Assembly: GCA_001829505.1 (NCBI GenBank) | Contig: MIBK01000141.1 | Coordinates: forward strand, 1 to 10,469 | Direction of reading: 5' to 3' | Source of the DNA: Spirochaetes bacterium RBG_16_67_19 | GTDB taxonomy: Bacteria > Spirochaetota > Spirochaetia > SZUA-6 > DRHE01 | Length of the DNA stretch: 10,469 nucleotides | In this document: positions 798 to 7,936 of the stretch, one piece after another | How positions within the stretch are numbered: the stretch's first letter is position 1 | Layout of the letters: the number at the start of each line of letters is the position of its first letter | Position numbers and translations under genes: made by a program | The notes under the pieces: generated by a model | Seen by the model: the letters and a program-made list of their open reading frames with translations, nothing else | Database searches by the model: none | What the model was told of the DNA's origin: nothing

Positions 798-1064
798 TTA
801 GGCCTGGATGACCGCCAGGATGTCGGACATCTTGACGATGAGCTGCTCCTCGCCTTCCACCTTGATCGTGGAGCCCGCGTACTTGTCGTAGATCACGCGG
901 TCCTTGGGCTTCACCTTGATGGCCTCGTCGTCGCCGACCGCGAGGACCACGCCTTCCTGGGTCTTCTCCTGCGCAGTCTGGGGAATGTAGATGCCTCCAG
1001 CTGTCTTCGTCTCCATCTCCACCATTTTGACCAGCACACGGTCACCCAGCGGCTTAACTTTCAT
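798..1064 (-). CDS. groES: Co-chaperonin GroES (10 kDa chaperonin, Cpn10)
   Basis: GroES forms the heptameric lid on the GroEL folding chamber in the cytoplasm. The 88-residue product has the family start MKVKPLGDRVLVK, a mobile loop with T-A-G-G-I-Y-I-P (about residues 21-28; I25-Y26-I27 sits where GroEL-binding I-V-L lies in many homologues), and the end ILAVIQA. It is a little shorter than the common 94-97 residues. The stretch YDKYAG (residues 59-64), in place of the usual Y.KYGG, is one I associate with spirochaetes. ATG at 1062-1064 follows a strong AGGAGG nine bases upstream. No groEL lies on either side: upstream is a divergent gene, and downstream are the repeat array and terminator. 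groES therefore appears to be a single-gene transcript with a sigma70-type promoter. I find no CIRCE inverted repeat in the leader. Confidence 0.96.
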   Translation of the reverse strand: MKVKPLGDRVLVKMVEMETKTAGGIYIPQTAQEKTQEGVVLAVGDDEAIKVKPKDRVIYDKYAGSTIKVEGEEQLIVKMSDILAVIQA

Positions 1065-1206: not shown

Positions 1207-1869
1207 ATGGAATGTTGGCGAAGTGATTTCCACCGCGGAGTGATCTCCTTGAGCCGGCACGATCCGGGGGGCGCGGTGGGGCATTTCTCCAGGGCGCTGC
1301 GGGAGTGCCCCGTGGCCAGGAAGCGGGACCTGGCCAGGCTGCTGTACTACCTGGGCATGGCGCTGCGGCGCCTGGGCTTTCCCAACTCCGCGGTGCGCAC
1401 CTGGATCACCTCCCAGCGCGCCAGGCGCCACCGCCAGACCCGCGAGCTGATCCAGCGTTTCGCCAACGGCTACGGCATGGCCAGGCAGCTCTCCGGGGAC
1501 CTGGACGACTGGCAGGCTTTCTACGCCATTCACACCAAGCGCTACCTGCGCTGCTTCGGAAAGCGCGCCTTCTCCAGCGCGGATGAGCGCTGCATGCTGG
1601 CGGATATCATCCGCGATTCCTGGCTGACGCTGCGCGAATCCGGCACCCTGGAGGGCAAAAGCACGGCGGAGAAGAGCGTCCTGTTCCAGGCCACGAACAT
1701 CGATTTCCCGTTGTTCCACCAGGCGAGGGACCCTGTGGTACGGGTGGATTTTCGGACCGGGGAGCGCCTGTGCGCCGAAAGCCCCTGCTTTTGCGGAAGC
1801 GGGCTGCCGTTTCTGGCCTGCTGCGGCCGCACCCCAGGGGAGGATGAGCTGGAAACAGGGTTTTTTTGA
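1207..1869 (+). CDS. Uncharacterised protein with TPR-like helices and a C-terminal SEC-C zinc motif
   Basis: The 220-residue product has no recognised enzyme function. Residues about 10-75 look like TPR-type helical hairpins (GGAVGHFSRALRECP, then LARLLYYLGMALRRLGFPNSAVRTW). TPRs are usually protein-binding surfaces. The C-terminus has CFCGSGLPFLACCG (Cys194, Cys196, Cys205, Cys206), matching the SEC-C pattern C-x-C-G-S-G-x-x-x-x-x-C-C-G known from the end of SecA and from many unrelated proteins, where it binds zinc. The usual lysines of that motif are missing here. There is no signal peptide or membrane segment, so a cytoplasmic location is likely. The start is uncertain because no Shine-Dalgarno precedes the ATG at 1207; GTG at 1240 is an alternative. 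The gene lies between groES (divergent) and a sigma factor gene (same strand), which could mean a stress or regulatory role, but this is a guess. Confidence 0.75.
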   Translation: MECWRSDFHRGVISLSRHDPGGAVGHFSRALRECPVARKRDLARLLYYLGMALRRLGFPNSAVRTWITSQRARRHRQTRELIQRFANGYGMARQLSGDLDDWQAFYAIHTKRYLRCFGKRAFSSADERCMLADIIRDSWLTLRESGTLEGKSTAEKSVLFQATNIDFPLFHQARDPVVRVDFRTGERLCAESPCFCGSGLPFLACCGRTPGEDELETGFF

Positions 1870-1933: not shown

Positions 1934-1976
1934 TACTCCAAAAACTATCCGATAACTATATACTCCAGAAATAGTT
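1934..1976 (+). promoter_or_regulatory. Repeat cluster upstream of the sigma54 promoter, possible activator-binding site
   Basis: In an A/T-rich patch, AACTAT occurs at 1943-1948 and 1954-1959, 11 bases apart (one helical turn), and its reverse complement ATAGTT at 1971-1976, giving AACTAT-N11-ATAGTT. TACTCCA also occurs twice (1934-1940 and 1961-1967), each followed by a purine and AAA. The cluster lies about 25-65 bases upstream of the -24 element. Enhancer-binding proteins of sigma54 systems commonly bind repeated sites upstream, so this is a candidate operator. TATACT at 1959-1964 could alternatively be a sigma70 -10 box, but no good -35 precedes it. Confidence 0.45.
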
Positions 1977-1998
1977 AGGTTTCCGTTTTTTCAGCGTT

Positions 1999-2014
1999 TG
2001 GCATGTCATTTGCT
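1999..2014 (+). promoter_or_regulatory. Sigma54 (RpoN) -24/-12 promoter of the sigma factor gene
   Basis: TGGCATGTCATTTGCT fits the consensus TGGCAC-N5-TTGCA/T with a single mismatch (T for C at 2004). The invariant GG (2000-2001) and GC (2012-2013) are exactly ten bases apart, as required by RpoN. Transcription would start near 2025, just upstream of the Shine-Dalgarno at 2035. RpoN promoters need an ATP-driven activator, for which the repeats at 1934-1976 are candidate sites. rpoN itself is not in the window. Confidence 0.65.
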
Positions 2015-2034
2015 TTATGTATGGTTACCAACAT

Positions 2035-2040
2035 GGAGGA
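2035..2040 (+). promoter_or_regulatory. Ribosome binding site that sets the sigma factor start
   Basis: GGAGGA lies four bases before the ATG at 2045. It overlaps the earlier in-frame ATG at 2033, and the in-frame ATG at 2003 lies inside the -24/-12 promoter, so neither of those is a likely start. Confidence 0.8.
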
Positions 2041-2044
2041 AATC

Positions 2045-2923
2045 ATGCCGCAGGCTCGTAAAGAGATCCAGAGCTACCGGGAATTCCGTCAGGACGACGA
2101 GAACATACTGTCTCTCTATCTGAAGGAGATCAACCGCATTCCCCTGCTGACCCGTTCAGAGGAGGAGCAGACGGCCACCCTGGCCGCCCAAGGGGACAAA
2201 GCGTCCAAGAATCGGCTGATCAAGGCCAACCTGCGCTTCGTGGTCAACGTGGCCAAAAAATACCAGAACCAGGGGCTGCCCCTGGCCGACCTGATCAGCG
2301 AGGGCAACATCGGACTGATCAACGCCATCGAGCGCTTCGACGTCTCCAAGGGCTATCACTTCATCTCCTACGCCGTCTGGTGGATCCGCCAGGCCATCCT
2401 GAAGGCCATCTGCGAGAAGTCGCGCATGATCCGCCTCCCCCTGAACCGGGCCAACGAGCTGGTGCAGATCGAGAAGGTCCGCAAGGAGCTGGGGGGCGCG
2501 GGCCGGGGCGACTCGGAGATCGTGGAGATCGCCCGGCAGCTGGACATGGACCAGGACCACGTGGCCGACCTGATCAACATCTCCCGGGACCTGATCTCCC
2601 TGGACACCCCGATCTACGACGAGAAGGACTCCTCATTGCTCAGCGATTTCGTGGAAGACCGCGGCTACAAAGCCCCCCACGAGGTGGTGGTGGACAAGGC
2701 CCTGCGGGAGGAGATCAACCAGGTGCTGGACACCCTGAGCCAGAAGGAGGCCGACATCATCCAGTACCGCTTCGGGCTGAACGGCCGCCGGCCGATGTCC
2801 CTGAAGGAGATCGGCAGCCGCTACAAGCTGACCAAGGAGCGCATCCGGCAGATCGAGAAGAAGGCCCTGAAGCGCCTGCAGCACCCCTCGCGCTCCAGCC
2901 CCCTGCGCGCCTATATGAACTGA
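2045..2923 (+). CDS. Sigma70-family RNA polymerase sigma factor, short primary-like (group 2 type)
   Basis: This factor directs RNA polymerase to promoters. The 292-residue product from ATG 2045 begins MPQARKEIQSYREF and lacks the acidic region 1.1 of housekeeping RpoD. Region 1.2 is about residues 18-50 (LSLYLKEINRIPLLTRSEEE). Region 2 is 55-130, with NLRFVVNVAKKYQNQGLPLADLISEGNIGL and the region 2.3-2.4 stretch GYHFISYAVWWIRQAI. Region 3 is about 133-205. Region 4 is 220-282, with the helix-turn-helix LKEIGSRYKLTKERIRQIEKKALKRLQH. Region 2 is close to the RpoD/RpoS type, so it should read promoters resembling -10/-35 boxes. I chose the start at 2045 rather than 2003 because of the Shine-Dalgarno and because 2003 lies inside the sigma54 promoter. 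A perfect terminator follows. It may be a general stress or alternative sigma such as RpoS, or the SigA-like second sigma of treponemes; the sequence alone does not decide. Confidence 0.92.
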   Translation: MPQARKEIQSYREFRQDDENILSLYLKEINRIPLLTRSEEEQTATLAAQGDKASKNRLIKANLRFVVNVAKKYQNQGLPLADLISEGNIGLINAIERFDVSKGYHFISYAVWWIRQAILKAICEKSRMIRLPLNRANELVQIEKVRKELGGAGRGDSEIVEIARQLDMDQDHVADLINISRDLISLDTPIYDEKDSSLLSDFVEDRGYKAPHEVVVDKALREEINQVLDTLSQKEADIIQYRFGLNGRRPMSLKEIGSRYKLTKERIRQIEKKALKRLQHPSRSSPLRAYMN

Positions 2924-2941: not shown

Positions 2942-2973
2942 AGCACGCGCTGCCCGGCGCGTGCTTTTTTTTT
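2942..2973 (+). terminator. Intrinsic terminator of the sigma factor gene
   Basis: AGCACGCGC (2942-2950) and GCGCGTGCT (2957-2965) form a perfect 9-bp stem with a 6-base loop, followed by a run of T to 2973. It lies 18 bases after the sigma factor stop and only about 20 bases before the patatin start. The patatin gene must therefore have its own promoter or rely on read-through. Confidence 0.92.
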
Positions 2974-5020: not shown

Positions 5021-7936
5021 ATGACCAAACACGTCTACTTGTTCGGCGGCGGGAAGGCCGACGGCAACGAGAAGATGAAAAACCTGCTGGGAGGCAAGGG
5101 GGCCAACCTGGCCGAGATGGCCGGGCACCCGGACCTGCGCCTGCCCGTGCCGGCCGGATTCACCATCACCACTGAGGTCTGCGTGCACTACTTCAGCAAC
5201 AAGGGCAGGTACCCGGAAGGGCTGAAGGAGCAGGTGTTGAAGGGCCTGGCCTACATCGAACGGGTGATGAACCACAAGTTCGGCGATCCGGGCAATCCGC
5301 TCCTGGTTTCGGTGCGCTCCGGCGCCCGCAAGTCCATGCCCGGCATGATGGAAACGGTGCTGAACGTGGGCCTGAACGAGCGCACCGCCGAAGGCATCAT
5401 CAAGGCTACCGGCAATCCCCGCTTCGTATACGACGCCTACCGGCGCCTGATCCAGATGTACTCCGACGTAGTCATGGAGAAGGCGGAAGGCCTGGAGCCC
5501 GCCGAGGGCATGGGCATCCGCCAGCAGCTGGAGCGCGAGCTGGACAGGATGAAGAAGGCCCGCGGCGTGAAGCAGGACACCGAGCTCACCGCCGGCGACC
5601 TGAAAGAGCTGATCCGGGTGTACAAAGCCAAGGTCAAGGAAGTGCTGGGCAAGGATTTCCCCGACGATCCCTTGGAGCAGCTGTGGGGCGGCATCCGGGC
5701 CGTGTTCCAGAGCTGGAACGGCAAACGCGCCGTCTCCTATCGCCGCATCGAGGGCATCCCCGACGAGTGGGGCACCGCGGTAACGGTCCAGGCCATGGTG
5801 TTCGGGAACATGGGCGAGGATTCCGGCACGGGCGTGGCCTTCACCCGCAACCCGGCCACCGGCGAGGACGTTTTCTACGGGGAGTGGCTGCCCAACGCCC
5901 AGGGCGAGGACGTGGTGGCCGGCATCCGCACGCCGTACCCCATCAACGAGGCCGGCAAGACCGAGCACACCGCGGGGCTGCCGTCCCTGGAGCGGCAGTT
6001 CGCCGTGATCTACCGGGAGCTGGACGCCATCCAGAAGCGCCTGGAAAAGCACTACCGGGACATGCTCGACCTGGAGTTCACGATCGAAAAGGGCAAGCTG
6101 TGGATGCTGCAGTGCCGGGTGGGCAAGCGCAACGGGCCCGCGGCCGTGCGCATGGCGGTGGAAATGGTGCGGCAGAAGCTGGTCAGCCCCGAGGAAGCGG
6201 TCGTACGCGTCACCCCGTCCCAGCTCGACGAGCTTCTGCACCCCGTCATCGACCCGGCCAAGGAAAAAGAGGCCAAGATCCTGGTGAAGGGCCTTCCGGC
6301 CGGTCCGGGAGGCGCCGTCGGCCAGGTGGTGCTCACCGCCAAGGACGCCGTGGAGTGGACCCAGGCGGGGAAGACGGTCATCCTGGTGCGCGAGGAGACC
6401 AATCCGGAGGACGTGGAGGGCATGCGCGCGGCCCAGGGCATCCTGACCGCCCGCGGCGGCATGACCTCGCACGCGGCGCTGGTGGCCCGGGGATGGGGCA
6501 AGTGCTGCATCGTCGGCGCCGGGGACATCCACGTGGAGGTGGACAAGCGCCAGATCACGGTCAAGGGCACGGTCGTCCGGGAGGGGGATTGGATCACCCT
6601 GAACGGCTCCAAGGGCACCGTCTACGCCCAGGCCCTGCCGCTGATCAAGGCCGCGGGGGAGAACCCCAACTTCGTAGCCATGATGGGGCTGTGCGACAAG
6701 GTGAAGAGGCTGGGCGTGCGCACCAACGCCGACACCCCCCAGGACTCCGCCAAGGCCCGCGAGTTCGGCGCCGAGGGCATCGGCCTGTTCCGCTTCGAGC
6801 ACATGTTCTACGGCGAGGGGGCCGACCGGCCTCTGTTCCTGCTGCGCCGCATGATCGCCTCCAACACCGAGGCCGAGCGCCGCAAGGCCCTGGAGGAGCT
6901 GGCCCCGTTCATGAAGGACGACGTGAAGAAGACCATGAAGGTCATGGACGGGTTGCCTGTCACCTTCCGCTTCCTGGACCCGCCCCTGCATGAGTTCGTA
7001 CCCAACGGCGCCGAAGAGCGCCGGCGCTTGGCCGCCGACCTGGGCATTTCCGACGAGGAGTTCAACAAGCGGGCGGACGCCCTGCACGAGTCCAACCCGA
7101 TGATGGGCCATCGCGGTGTGCGGCTGGGCATCTCCTACCCGGAAATGACCGAGGTGCAGGCCCGGGCCATCCTGGAAGCCGCGGCGGAGCTTATCAGTGA
7201 AGGCGTGGACGCCCGCCCTGAGCTGATGATCCCCGTGACCTCCCACGTGGCCGAGATCGAGCACCAGAAGAAGCTGATCGAGAAGGTCTACGGCCAGGTG
7301 GTGGACAAGTTCCGCCTGCCCAAGGGCAAGCCGGCCCTGGTGATCGGCACCATGATCGAGATCCCGCGGGCCTGCATCACCGCGGACAAGTTCGCCGTGC
7401 CGTGCGAGTTCTTCTCCTTCGGCACCAACGACCTGACCCAGATGGGCTTCGGCTTCTCGCGCGACGACATCGGCGGCTTCCTGCCGAAGTACCTGGAAAA
7501 AGGCATCCTGCCCGTCGACCCCTTCCAGAGCATCGACCAGGAGGGCATCGGCGAGCTCATCCGCATGGGCATCAGCAAGGGCAGGGCGGTGAAGCCGAAT
7601 TTAAAAATAGGCATCTGCGGCGAGCACGGCGGGGAGCCCGAATCGGTCAAGTTCTGCCACCGGGTAGGCATGAGCTACGTCTCCTGCTCGCCGTATCGCG
7701 TGCCGCTGGCCAAGCTGGCCGCGGCGCAGGAGGCGGTGGCCGACCTGGCCAAGAAGGCCGCAGGGCCCGCGCCCAAAAAGGCTGCCGGGACCGGCGCCAA
7801 GGCTGCGGCCAGGAAGCCGGCGGCCAGGAAGCCGGTCAAGGCCGCGGCTAAGAAGCCGGCGGTGAAGAAACCGGTCAAGAAAGCGGTGGCCAAGAAGCCA
7901 CCGGTCAAGGCGAAGAAGCCGGCGAAGAAGAGGTAG
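5021..7936 (+). CDS. ppdK: Pyruvate, phosphate dikinase with an extra histone-H1-like basic C-terminal tail
   Basis: PPDK interconverts ATP + pyruvate + Pi with AMP + phosphoenolpyruvate + PPi in the cytoplasm, serving glycolysis or gluconeogenesis in many anaerobes. The 971-residue product has the N-terminal nucleotide-binding region (FGGGKADGNEKMKNLLGGKGANLAEM at 9-34, SVRSGARKSMPGMMETVLNVGL). The swivelling phosphohistidine domain has GGMTSHAALVARGWGKCC, with catalytic His484 and the Thr482 equivalent to the plant regulatory site. The PEP/pyruvate barrel has GTNDLTQM (801-808) and GICGEHGGEP with catalytic Cys866. The enzyme normally ends near LAKLAAAQEAV at about 875-880 residues. Here residues 911-971 form an extra Lys/Ala/Pro tail, with 24 basic and no acidic residues out of 61. 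All catalytic residues are present, so the enzyme should be active. It has its own promoter and terminator, and no PPDK regulatory protein is nearby. Confidence 0.97.
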   Translation: MTKHVYLFGGGKADGNEKMKNLLGGKGANLAEMAGHPDLRLPVPAGFTITTEVCVHYFSNKGRYPEGLKEQVLKGLAYIERVMNHKFGDPGNPLLVSVRSGARKSMPGMMETVLNVGLNERTAEGIIKATGNPRFVYDAYRRLIQMYSDVVMEKAEGLEPAEGMGIRQQLERELDRMKKARGVKQDTELTAGDLKELIRVYKAKVKEVLGKDFPDDPLEQLWGGIRAVFQSWNGKRAVSYRRIEGIPDEWGTAVTVQAMVFGNMGEDSGTGVAFTRNPATGEDVFYGEWLPNAQGEDVVAGIRTPYPINEAGKTEHTAGLPSLERQFAVIYRELDAIQKRLEKHYRDMLDLEFTIEKGKLWMLQCRVGKRNGPAAVRMAVEMVRQKLVSPEEAVVRVTPSQLDELLHPVIDPAKEKEAKILVKGLPAGPGGAVGQVVLTAKDAVEWTQAGKTVILVREETNPEDVEGMRAAQGILTARGGMTSHAALVARGWGKCCIVGAGDIHVEVDKRQITVKGTVVREGDWITLNGSKGTVYAQALPLIKAAGENPNFVAMMGLCDKVKRLGVRTNADTPQDSAKAREFGAEGIGLFRFEHMFYGEGADRPLFLLRRMIASNTEAERRKALEELAPFMKDDVKKTMKVMDGLPVTFRFLDPPLHEFVPNGAEERRRLAADLGISDEEFNKRADALHESNPMMGHRGVRLGISYPEMTEVQARAILEAAAELISEGVDARPELMIPVTSHVAEIEHQKKLIEKVYGQVVDKFRLPKGKPALVIGTMIEIPRACITADKFAVPCEFFSFGTNDLTQMGFGFSRDDIGGFLPKYLEKGILPVDPFQSIDQEGIGELIRMGISKGRAVKPNLKIGICGEHGGEPESVKFCHRVGMSYVSCSPYRVPLAKLAAAQEAVADLAKKAAGPAPKKAAGTGAKAAARKPAARKPVKAAAKKPAVKKPVKKAVAKKPPVKAKKPAKKR
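7751..7933 (+). repeat. Low-complexity coding repeat for the Lys/Ala/Pro tail of PPDK
   Basis: This segment repeats close variants of AAGAAGCCGGC and GCCAGGAAGCCGG, giving KKP, ARKP and VKK steps in the protein. It encodes residues 911-971, ending in KKPAKKR. Such tracts vary in length between strains by slippage. Although repetitive, it stays in frame to the TAG at 7934-7936, which suggests it is a kept protein feature. Confidence 0.8.

Follow-up and report, generated by a model that had tools for sequence, protein, structure and literature searches.

The window analysed here is the whole stretch of 10,469 nucleotides from contig MIBK01000141.1 of Spirochaetes bacterium RBG_16_67_19. It contains a gene for a short sigma-70 family factor, and the question it raises is what switches this gene on. 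An earlier note on the sequence had proposed a two-step cascade, in which RpoN (sigma54) and its activator turn on the second sigma factor from a −24/−12 promoter directly upstream. A pattern search of the whole window showed TGGCATGTCATTTGCT, on the + strand, to differ from TGGCACNNNNNTTGCW by a single mismatch, the other 28 matches having three mismatches each. Since the 29 matches at up to three mismatches fall below the shuffled mean of 42, only the closeness of the TGGCATGTCATTTGCT match is telling. Scanning of both strands with a sigma54 weight matrix written from the consensus gave this site a score of 16.8 of 18.9 and the next best site in the window 11.2; the proposed GG-N10-GC match is thus the closest that the window offers. 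Transcription is predicted to begin near position 2025, which we take to be the start from the usual geometry of sigma54 promoters. The in-frame ATG at 2003 falls within the sigma54 site, confirming a point of the earlier note, and both this codon and ATG 2021 would consequently lie upstream of the transcript. The Shine-Dalgarno sequence expected 3′ of the promoter fits the ATG at 2045. A terminator following the gene suggests that the sigma gene is transcribed alone. No Rfam family matched the window at gathering scores.

Table 1. Positions of the genes and regulatory elements recognised in the window.
Feature	Position	Strand	Basis or remark
DinG-type helicase gene, C-terminal part, truncated by contig start	3..713	+	tblastn
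groES	798..1064	-	NCBIfam NF001531, 105.4 bits (cut-off 96)
orfX, between groES and sigma gene	1207..1869	+	same location in some of the relatives
Distal enhancer dyad AGGGTTTTTTTGACCCG, 11.0 bits	1857..1873		motif matrix
Proximal enhancer dyad TGGGTAGATATGACCCG, 17.4 bits	1897..1913		motif matrix
Inverted repeat TAACTAT (1953-1959)-N11-ATAGTTA (1971-1977)	1953..1977		place of the relatives' AT-rich dyad
Sigma54 (−24/−12) promoter TGGCATGTCATTTGCT	1999..2014	+	pattern, matrix, conservation
Transcription start, predicted	2025	+	12 bp past the C of GC, C2013 being −12
Shine-Dalgarno GGAGG	2036..2040	+	sequence; fits ATG 2045
Sigma-70 family sigma factor, 292 aa, regions 1.2, 2, 3 and 4	2045..2923	+	domains, tree
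Intrinsic terminator GCACGCGC-N6-GCGCGTGC, then nine T	2943..2973	+	by eye

The genes of the window are ordered dinG, groES, orfX, sigma, patatin and PPDK. No Pfam or NCBIfam match was obtained for orfX, whose C-terminal sequence CFCGSGLPFLACCG has, by eye, a SEC-C-like appearance. The source genome (G000; 83.7% complete, 245 contigs) has 14 matches to sigma-70 region 2, including a normal RpoD on contig C113. The window protein is separate from this RpoD and belongs to group 2 (RpoD/RpoS-like). One correction applies to the parallel with Borrelia drawn in the earlier note: the gene is not the orthologue of Borrelia rpoS (see below). That the host would be a spirochaete agrees with the named relatives, which are spirochaetes. 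The genome contains rpoN and about 15 strong sigma54 activator genes, so the partners that the cascade presupposes are there, and the pattern TGGCAYRNNNNYTGCW has 18 matches in it, against 3 for the reversed control. Two further features of the window were observed in passing: some 47 bp repeated in tandem between dinG and groES (positions 711-800, by eye), and a long C-terminal tail, rich in lysine, alanine and proline, on the pyruvate phosphate dikinase (7750-7936).

Copies of the sigma gene were gathered from 98 related genomes, G000 included. Among the 90 resulting loci one was truncated before the gene start, leaving 89, and a site was counted when it scored 14 or more between 130 bp before and about 45 bp after the aligned start. 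The site was present in 72 of the 89, as against none of 59 genes taken from other phyla as an outgroup; at other upstream positions of the relatives' loci, 226,664 in all, only two sites of that score occurred. One of the relatives with the site is Breznakiella homolactica (L074). A list of 21 named loci, one of them truncated, gave a similar picture, with the site in 16 of 20; three of these loci appear to duplicate members of the first set, and a Leptospiraceae record is among the four that lack a site. A match to rpoN was found in 96 of the 98 genomes, that of the window included. The 17 copies that miss the threshold fall into several kinds. Three keep GG and GC at a lower score (L016, L166, L171) and add to the conservation of GG-N10-GC on which the proposal depended. 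AG replaces GG in L177, L188 and L189 (G048 and G068 of family f29, G061 of f17), all three genomes having an rpoN match, and GT replaces GC in L181. Five are first copies in family f2 (L162, L173, L175, L176, L180); four of the five genomes concerned proved to have another copy that does possess the site (L186, L187, L191, L196), G017 showing the first copy only, and the copies without and with the site (L175, L186, L176, L196, L162, L191) look like a division of labour. The remaining five are more distant (L198, L200, L202, L204, L205). Taken together, the sequence comparisons confirmed the predicted sigma54 site before the window gene as real. As a separate observation, G098, which we assign to a T. 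pallidum-like organism (just as G043, G065, G081 and G095 appear to be Borrelia-like), has a window-type sigma gene of 40.5% identity beside groES (L448, 666-1538, - strand), with TGGCATGATATTTGCT upstream; no enhancer dyad was seen by eye at this locus.

The repeat sites that the earlier note had mentioned upstream of the promoter resolved into two enhancer-like dyads and the inverted repeat TAACTAT/ATAGTTA. The dyads are 17 bp long, of the type TGTGTCA-N3-TGACACA, and lie 40 bp apart, with their centres about 160 (distal) and 120 bp (proximal) before the predicted transcription start, the usual distance for enhancers of a sigma54 promoter. The same motif was recovered de novo by a palindromic motif search of 93 upstream stretches (89 of window type and 4 from Borrelia rpoS), with a log-likelihood of 670 against 49 and 65 in two shuffles. 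Scored with a matrix trained on these same loci, the best copy reached at least 10 bits in 86 of the 89, the exceptions being L069, L070 and L071; the second-best copy lay 39-41 bp away in 80, with at least 8 bits in 59 of these 80. All four Borrelia stretches scored below zero. The inverted repeat occupies the place of another element conserved in relatives (403.8 against 67.2 in one shuffle), an AT-rich dyad of 23 bp with the consensus AAtTccTTATaNtATAAggAaTT, about 35 bp before the promoter. This element is weak in the window (8.7 with a 21-bp matrix), and a protein acting there could possibly be a DNA bender or a repressor.

The search was then extended to 297 genomes of the class with a pattern made of a half dyad and a sigma54 site 82-112 bp further downstream. 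This gave 150 matches in 114 genomes, compared with 20 for the reversed pattern; under this strict definition 183 genomes had no match. Among 30 automatically picked loci, 16 preceded the window-type sigma gene, 7 an Hsp20 gene and 2 a PspA gene, the other 5 belonging to other genes or to none (Hsp20 and PspA called by Pfam PF00011 and PF04012, sigma genes by eye). The dyad and sigma54 site precede pspA in L363 and L364 (G138 and G120, family f31). Twenty regions picked by eye from these matches, most of them with the AT-rich dyad, comprised 16 Hsp20-like genes, 3 sigma genes and one region without the enhancer, also by eye; these were left out of the counts, four of them repeating places of the automatic set. 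The genome G006, from the family of the window, contains 8 dyads at up to two mismatches, against 2 in the control. Two stand before the sigma gene, and a pair precedes two Hsp20 genes, where the site reads TGGCACGATTTTTGAA, with GA for GC and a score of 12.3. One dyad, with a sigma54 site, precedes DnaK, followed by a DnaJ gene (by eye); one member of a further pair, also with a sigma54 site, precedes Hsp20. Two dyads had no sigma54 site in the fetched stretch, and in all 4 of the 8 had none scoring above 12.5 nearby. In the distant genome G058, two Hsp20 genes, one of them Pfam-tested, follow two dyads and a sigma54 site, and a further dyad in G060 lies before murG with no sigma54 site above 12.5 nearby. 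In the source genome itself, 83.7% complete, 15 of the 18 sigma54 sites were inspected: only that of the window has an enhancer pair, one other has a lone dyad of 11.8 bits, and none of the others inspected was followed by a recognisable chaperone gene. Enhancer and sigma54 site are therefore shared with chaperone genes in relatives, and their common occurrence before sigma, Hsp20 and PspA genes suggests a protein-stress regulon under sigma54, of which the sigma factor forms one arm.

An NtrC-type protein belonging to the Rrp2 clade, encoded next to a kinase gene, is the likely activator. Contig C174 of the source genome contains a kinase gene, an activator gene and, at the contig end, the N-terminal part of dinG. 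Because the window contig begins within dinG, the two contigs are probably neighbours. A tree was built from 35 activators, including 12 of the 15 strong ones of the source genome (two genes on C62 and one on C218 were left out). One clade of 15 (support 99/98) united the C174 protein with Borrelia Rrp2 and with the four sigma-linked activators that the tree contained. Members of this clade, two of which were scanned with Pfam, consist of a receiver, an AAA+ domain and a Fis-type HTH, an architecture that the C174 protein shares along with its adjoining kinase gene. The HTH ends in GRKTLHNKI in Borrelia, GRKTLHRKI in the source genome and GRKTLHRKL in others. Upstream stretches of about 6 to 18 kb were inspected in 35 genomes. 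In 14 of them (G058, G092, G091, G076, G006, G071, G049, G051, G033, G019, G042, G030, G014 and G016) the activator gene lay some 3-13 kb before the sigma gene; in the other 21 it was absent from the inspected stretch. A kinase gene adjoins the linked activator in 13 of the 14, the stretch from G042 ending in the activator gene.

Several other readings of these data have to be weighed. That the promoter is a chance match is vanishingly improbable, with 0.0016 sites expected per search against the 72 of 89 seen, and a site in just one of 1780 shuffled upstream stretches. The sigma54 site might instead be a minor or decayed promoter, the main transcription coming from a sigma70 promoter. The altered GG or GC in G048, G068, G061 and G050 speaks for this, since it indicates that the gene can live without a consensus site; conservation across the class, together with an enhancer pair at 40-bp spacing, argues against it and makes it very unlikely. 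A greater share of our doubt concerns the activator. The dyads could be bound by another of the roughly 15 strong activators of the source genome, three of which are outside the tree, with the Rrp2-clade gene a mere bystander nearby. An Rrp2-like gene located elsewhere on the chromosome, far from the sigma gene, in G031, G048 and others would agree with such a situation, as would the retention in G048 and G068 of an activator of 57-58% identity despite their altered promoter. On the other hand, the Rrp2-clade gene is the only strong activator in G060, G031 and G056, where paired dyads are present (and where no RpoS-type gene was found), and the linkage of kinase and activator to the sigma gene recurs in unrelated families. 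We consider a different activator rather unlikely, and retain the Rrp2-clade protein as the candidate.

The parallel with Borrelia raises one more alternative, namely that the window gene is the spirochaete rpoS and that the Borrelia RpoN-RpoS cascade has simply been found again. The two genes have in common that they encode short sigma-70 family factors and follow a sigma54 promoter, and their activators belong to one clade. The source genome contains, however, a second such gene, on contig C39 (L292, 1354-2221), which encodes 279 aa, has its own sigma54 site directly before it and is probably the orthologue of Borrelia rpoS. Copies of this C39 type have a sigma54 site in all 30 fetched cases (scores 14.2 to 18.9). 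The window-type dyad is missing before them, the best score in 34 loci of 220 bp each being 5.1; by eye, they share another dyad, TGTATA-N6-TATACA, and the AT-rich dyad also occurs before them. An initial sigma tree of 68 rows could not place Borrelia RpoS, owing to its very long branch, so a tree of 41 rows was built, its groups chosen after the earlier tree and the gene search results. In this tree Borrelia RpoS joined the C39 type at 100/97.6 and its grouping with the window type was rejected (AU p 0.0235), figures to which a long-branch warning applies. Gene order pointed the same way: flgJ, and mostly flgI as well, precedes the gene on C39, at most C39-type loci and in the Borrelia-like G065, whereas the window type lies by dinG, groES and PPDK, with groES and orfX as its neighbours and flgI-flgJ not beside it. 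Tree, gene order and the missing dyad argue against the window gene as the orthologue of Borrelia RpoS, and we hold this alternative to be highly unlikely. The same data indicate that Borrelia has a C39-type sigma gene and an Rrp2-clade activator but no dyad, the dyad not being enriched in the four Borrelia-like genomes (1-2 places, as opposed to 0-1 for the control). Two side observations bear on these genes. In two of the four Borrelia-like genomes rpoN reads broken, with several stops or in two pieces (G043:C1:472400-472828 and G081:C1:475649-476073), while the sigma54 site before rpoS is kept; this could be decay or an assembly error. On contig C135 of the source genome (1332-1612; L269, L293) a short ECF-type sigma gene lies directly behind the sigma54 site TGGCACAGCTCTTGCT, which brings to three the sigma genes of this genome that follow a site of this kind.

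Returning to the window-type gene, we postulate the following circuit. RNA polymerase with sigma54 would transcribe the sigma gene at 2045-2923 from the site at 1999-2014. The phosphorylated NtrC-type activator of the Rrp2 clade, in the source genome the C174 protein beside its kinase, would bind the dyads at 1857-1873 and 1897-1913 and contact the polymerase through DNA looping. The same activator would drive Hsp20 genes, joined in some lineages by DnaK or PspA; with chaperone and PspA genes among its targets, the regulon would represent a sigma54-dependent response to protein or envelope stress, of which the sigma factor forms the second step. The sequences directly show the promoter and the dyad pair, the conservation of both, and the dyads shared with chaperone genes of relatives; the conserved site, rpoN and the activator genes support the two-step cascade that had been put forward. 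The activator's identity, the inducing signal and the genes that the sigma factor itself controls are our inference. For the circuit as a whole, we believe that this account is quite probably right.

Sigma54-driven stress genes exist elsewhere, as exemplified by ibpB, the sigma54 promoter of rpoH and pspA in E. coli, and by HsfA/HsfB in Myxococcus. These cases resemble the present one in that sigma54 and an activator serve to express chaperones, PspA or a sigma factor for stress; they are not known to share activators or enhancers with the dyad system. Closer at hand, the Rrp2-RpoN-RpoS pathway of Borrelia burgdorferi is alike in that RpoN and an NtrC-type activator of the same clade switch on a sigma-70 family gene; Rrp2 and Hk2 likewise present the receiver, AAA+ and Fis-type HTH domains and the adjoining kinase gene. 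Beyond the sigma gene being a different one, the two systems are unlike in their enhancers: according to Burtnick et al. 2007 (PMC1976401), Rrp2 activates Borrelia rpoS without an enhancer and no binding was seen within 238 bp upstream, whereas the window type has a tandem enhancer. Rrp2 differs further in being reported as essential for growth, apart from its role as an activator (review PMC12472547), and in the lack of dyad enrichment in Borrelia-like genomes. The same review describes an rrp2 point mutant with changes in more than 100 genes, heat-shock genes included, independently of RpoN-RpoS. A sigma54 survey of 2025 (PMC12316311) links sigma-70/32-type genes (COG0568) and chaperones to sigma54; in the text available, its chaperone cluster concerns Planctomycetota and Bacteroidota, and no Spirochaetia circuit, enhancer or activator is described. 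A literature search, scant on subscription journals, returned nothing on the window-type sigma gene or its enhancer, nor on a heat-shock circuit under sigma54 in Spirochaetia. What the sequences predict is a cascade from sigma54 to a sigma70-type factor with a tandem enhancer common to chaperone genes.

Activation of rpoS without an enhancer, and effects of rrp2 that do not depend on RpoN-RpoS, would both fit an activator whose original targets lay elsewhere. A possible history, to which we give somewhat less than even credence, is that Spirochaetia started out with two sigma genes under sigma54, each behind an enhancer of its own, and that Hk2-Rrp2 served the window-type heat-shock circuit; Borrelia would then have lost that sigma gene along with the rpoS enhancer, keeping an Rrp2 that now activates rpoS from solution. 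If true, this would explain the apparently intact HTH of Rrp2, which has no known binding site at rpoS, and the changes of heat-shock genes in rrp2 mutants. A guess about one promoter has in this way grown into a class-wide circuit for which an enhancer is defined and a candidate activator and a function are proposed; beyond the promoter of the earlier note, it comprises an enhancer in tandem, its likely activator and heat-shock genes with the same enhancer. The arrangement of dyad, 40 bp, dyad and sigma54 site provides a sequence handle on the stress genes of little-studied spirochaetes. The circuit also gives a testable history to the Rrp2-RpoN-RpoS pathway, whose enhancer-free activation is puzzling, and suggests that a well-known regulator of the Lyme spirochaete may have begun in a stress switch for a different gene.
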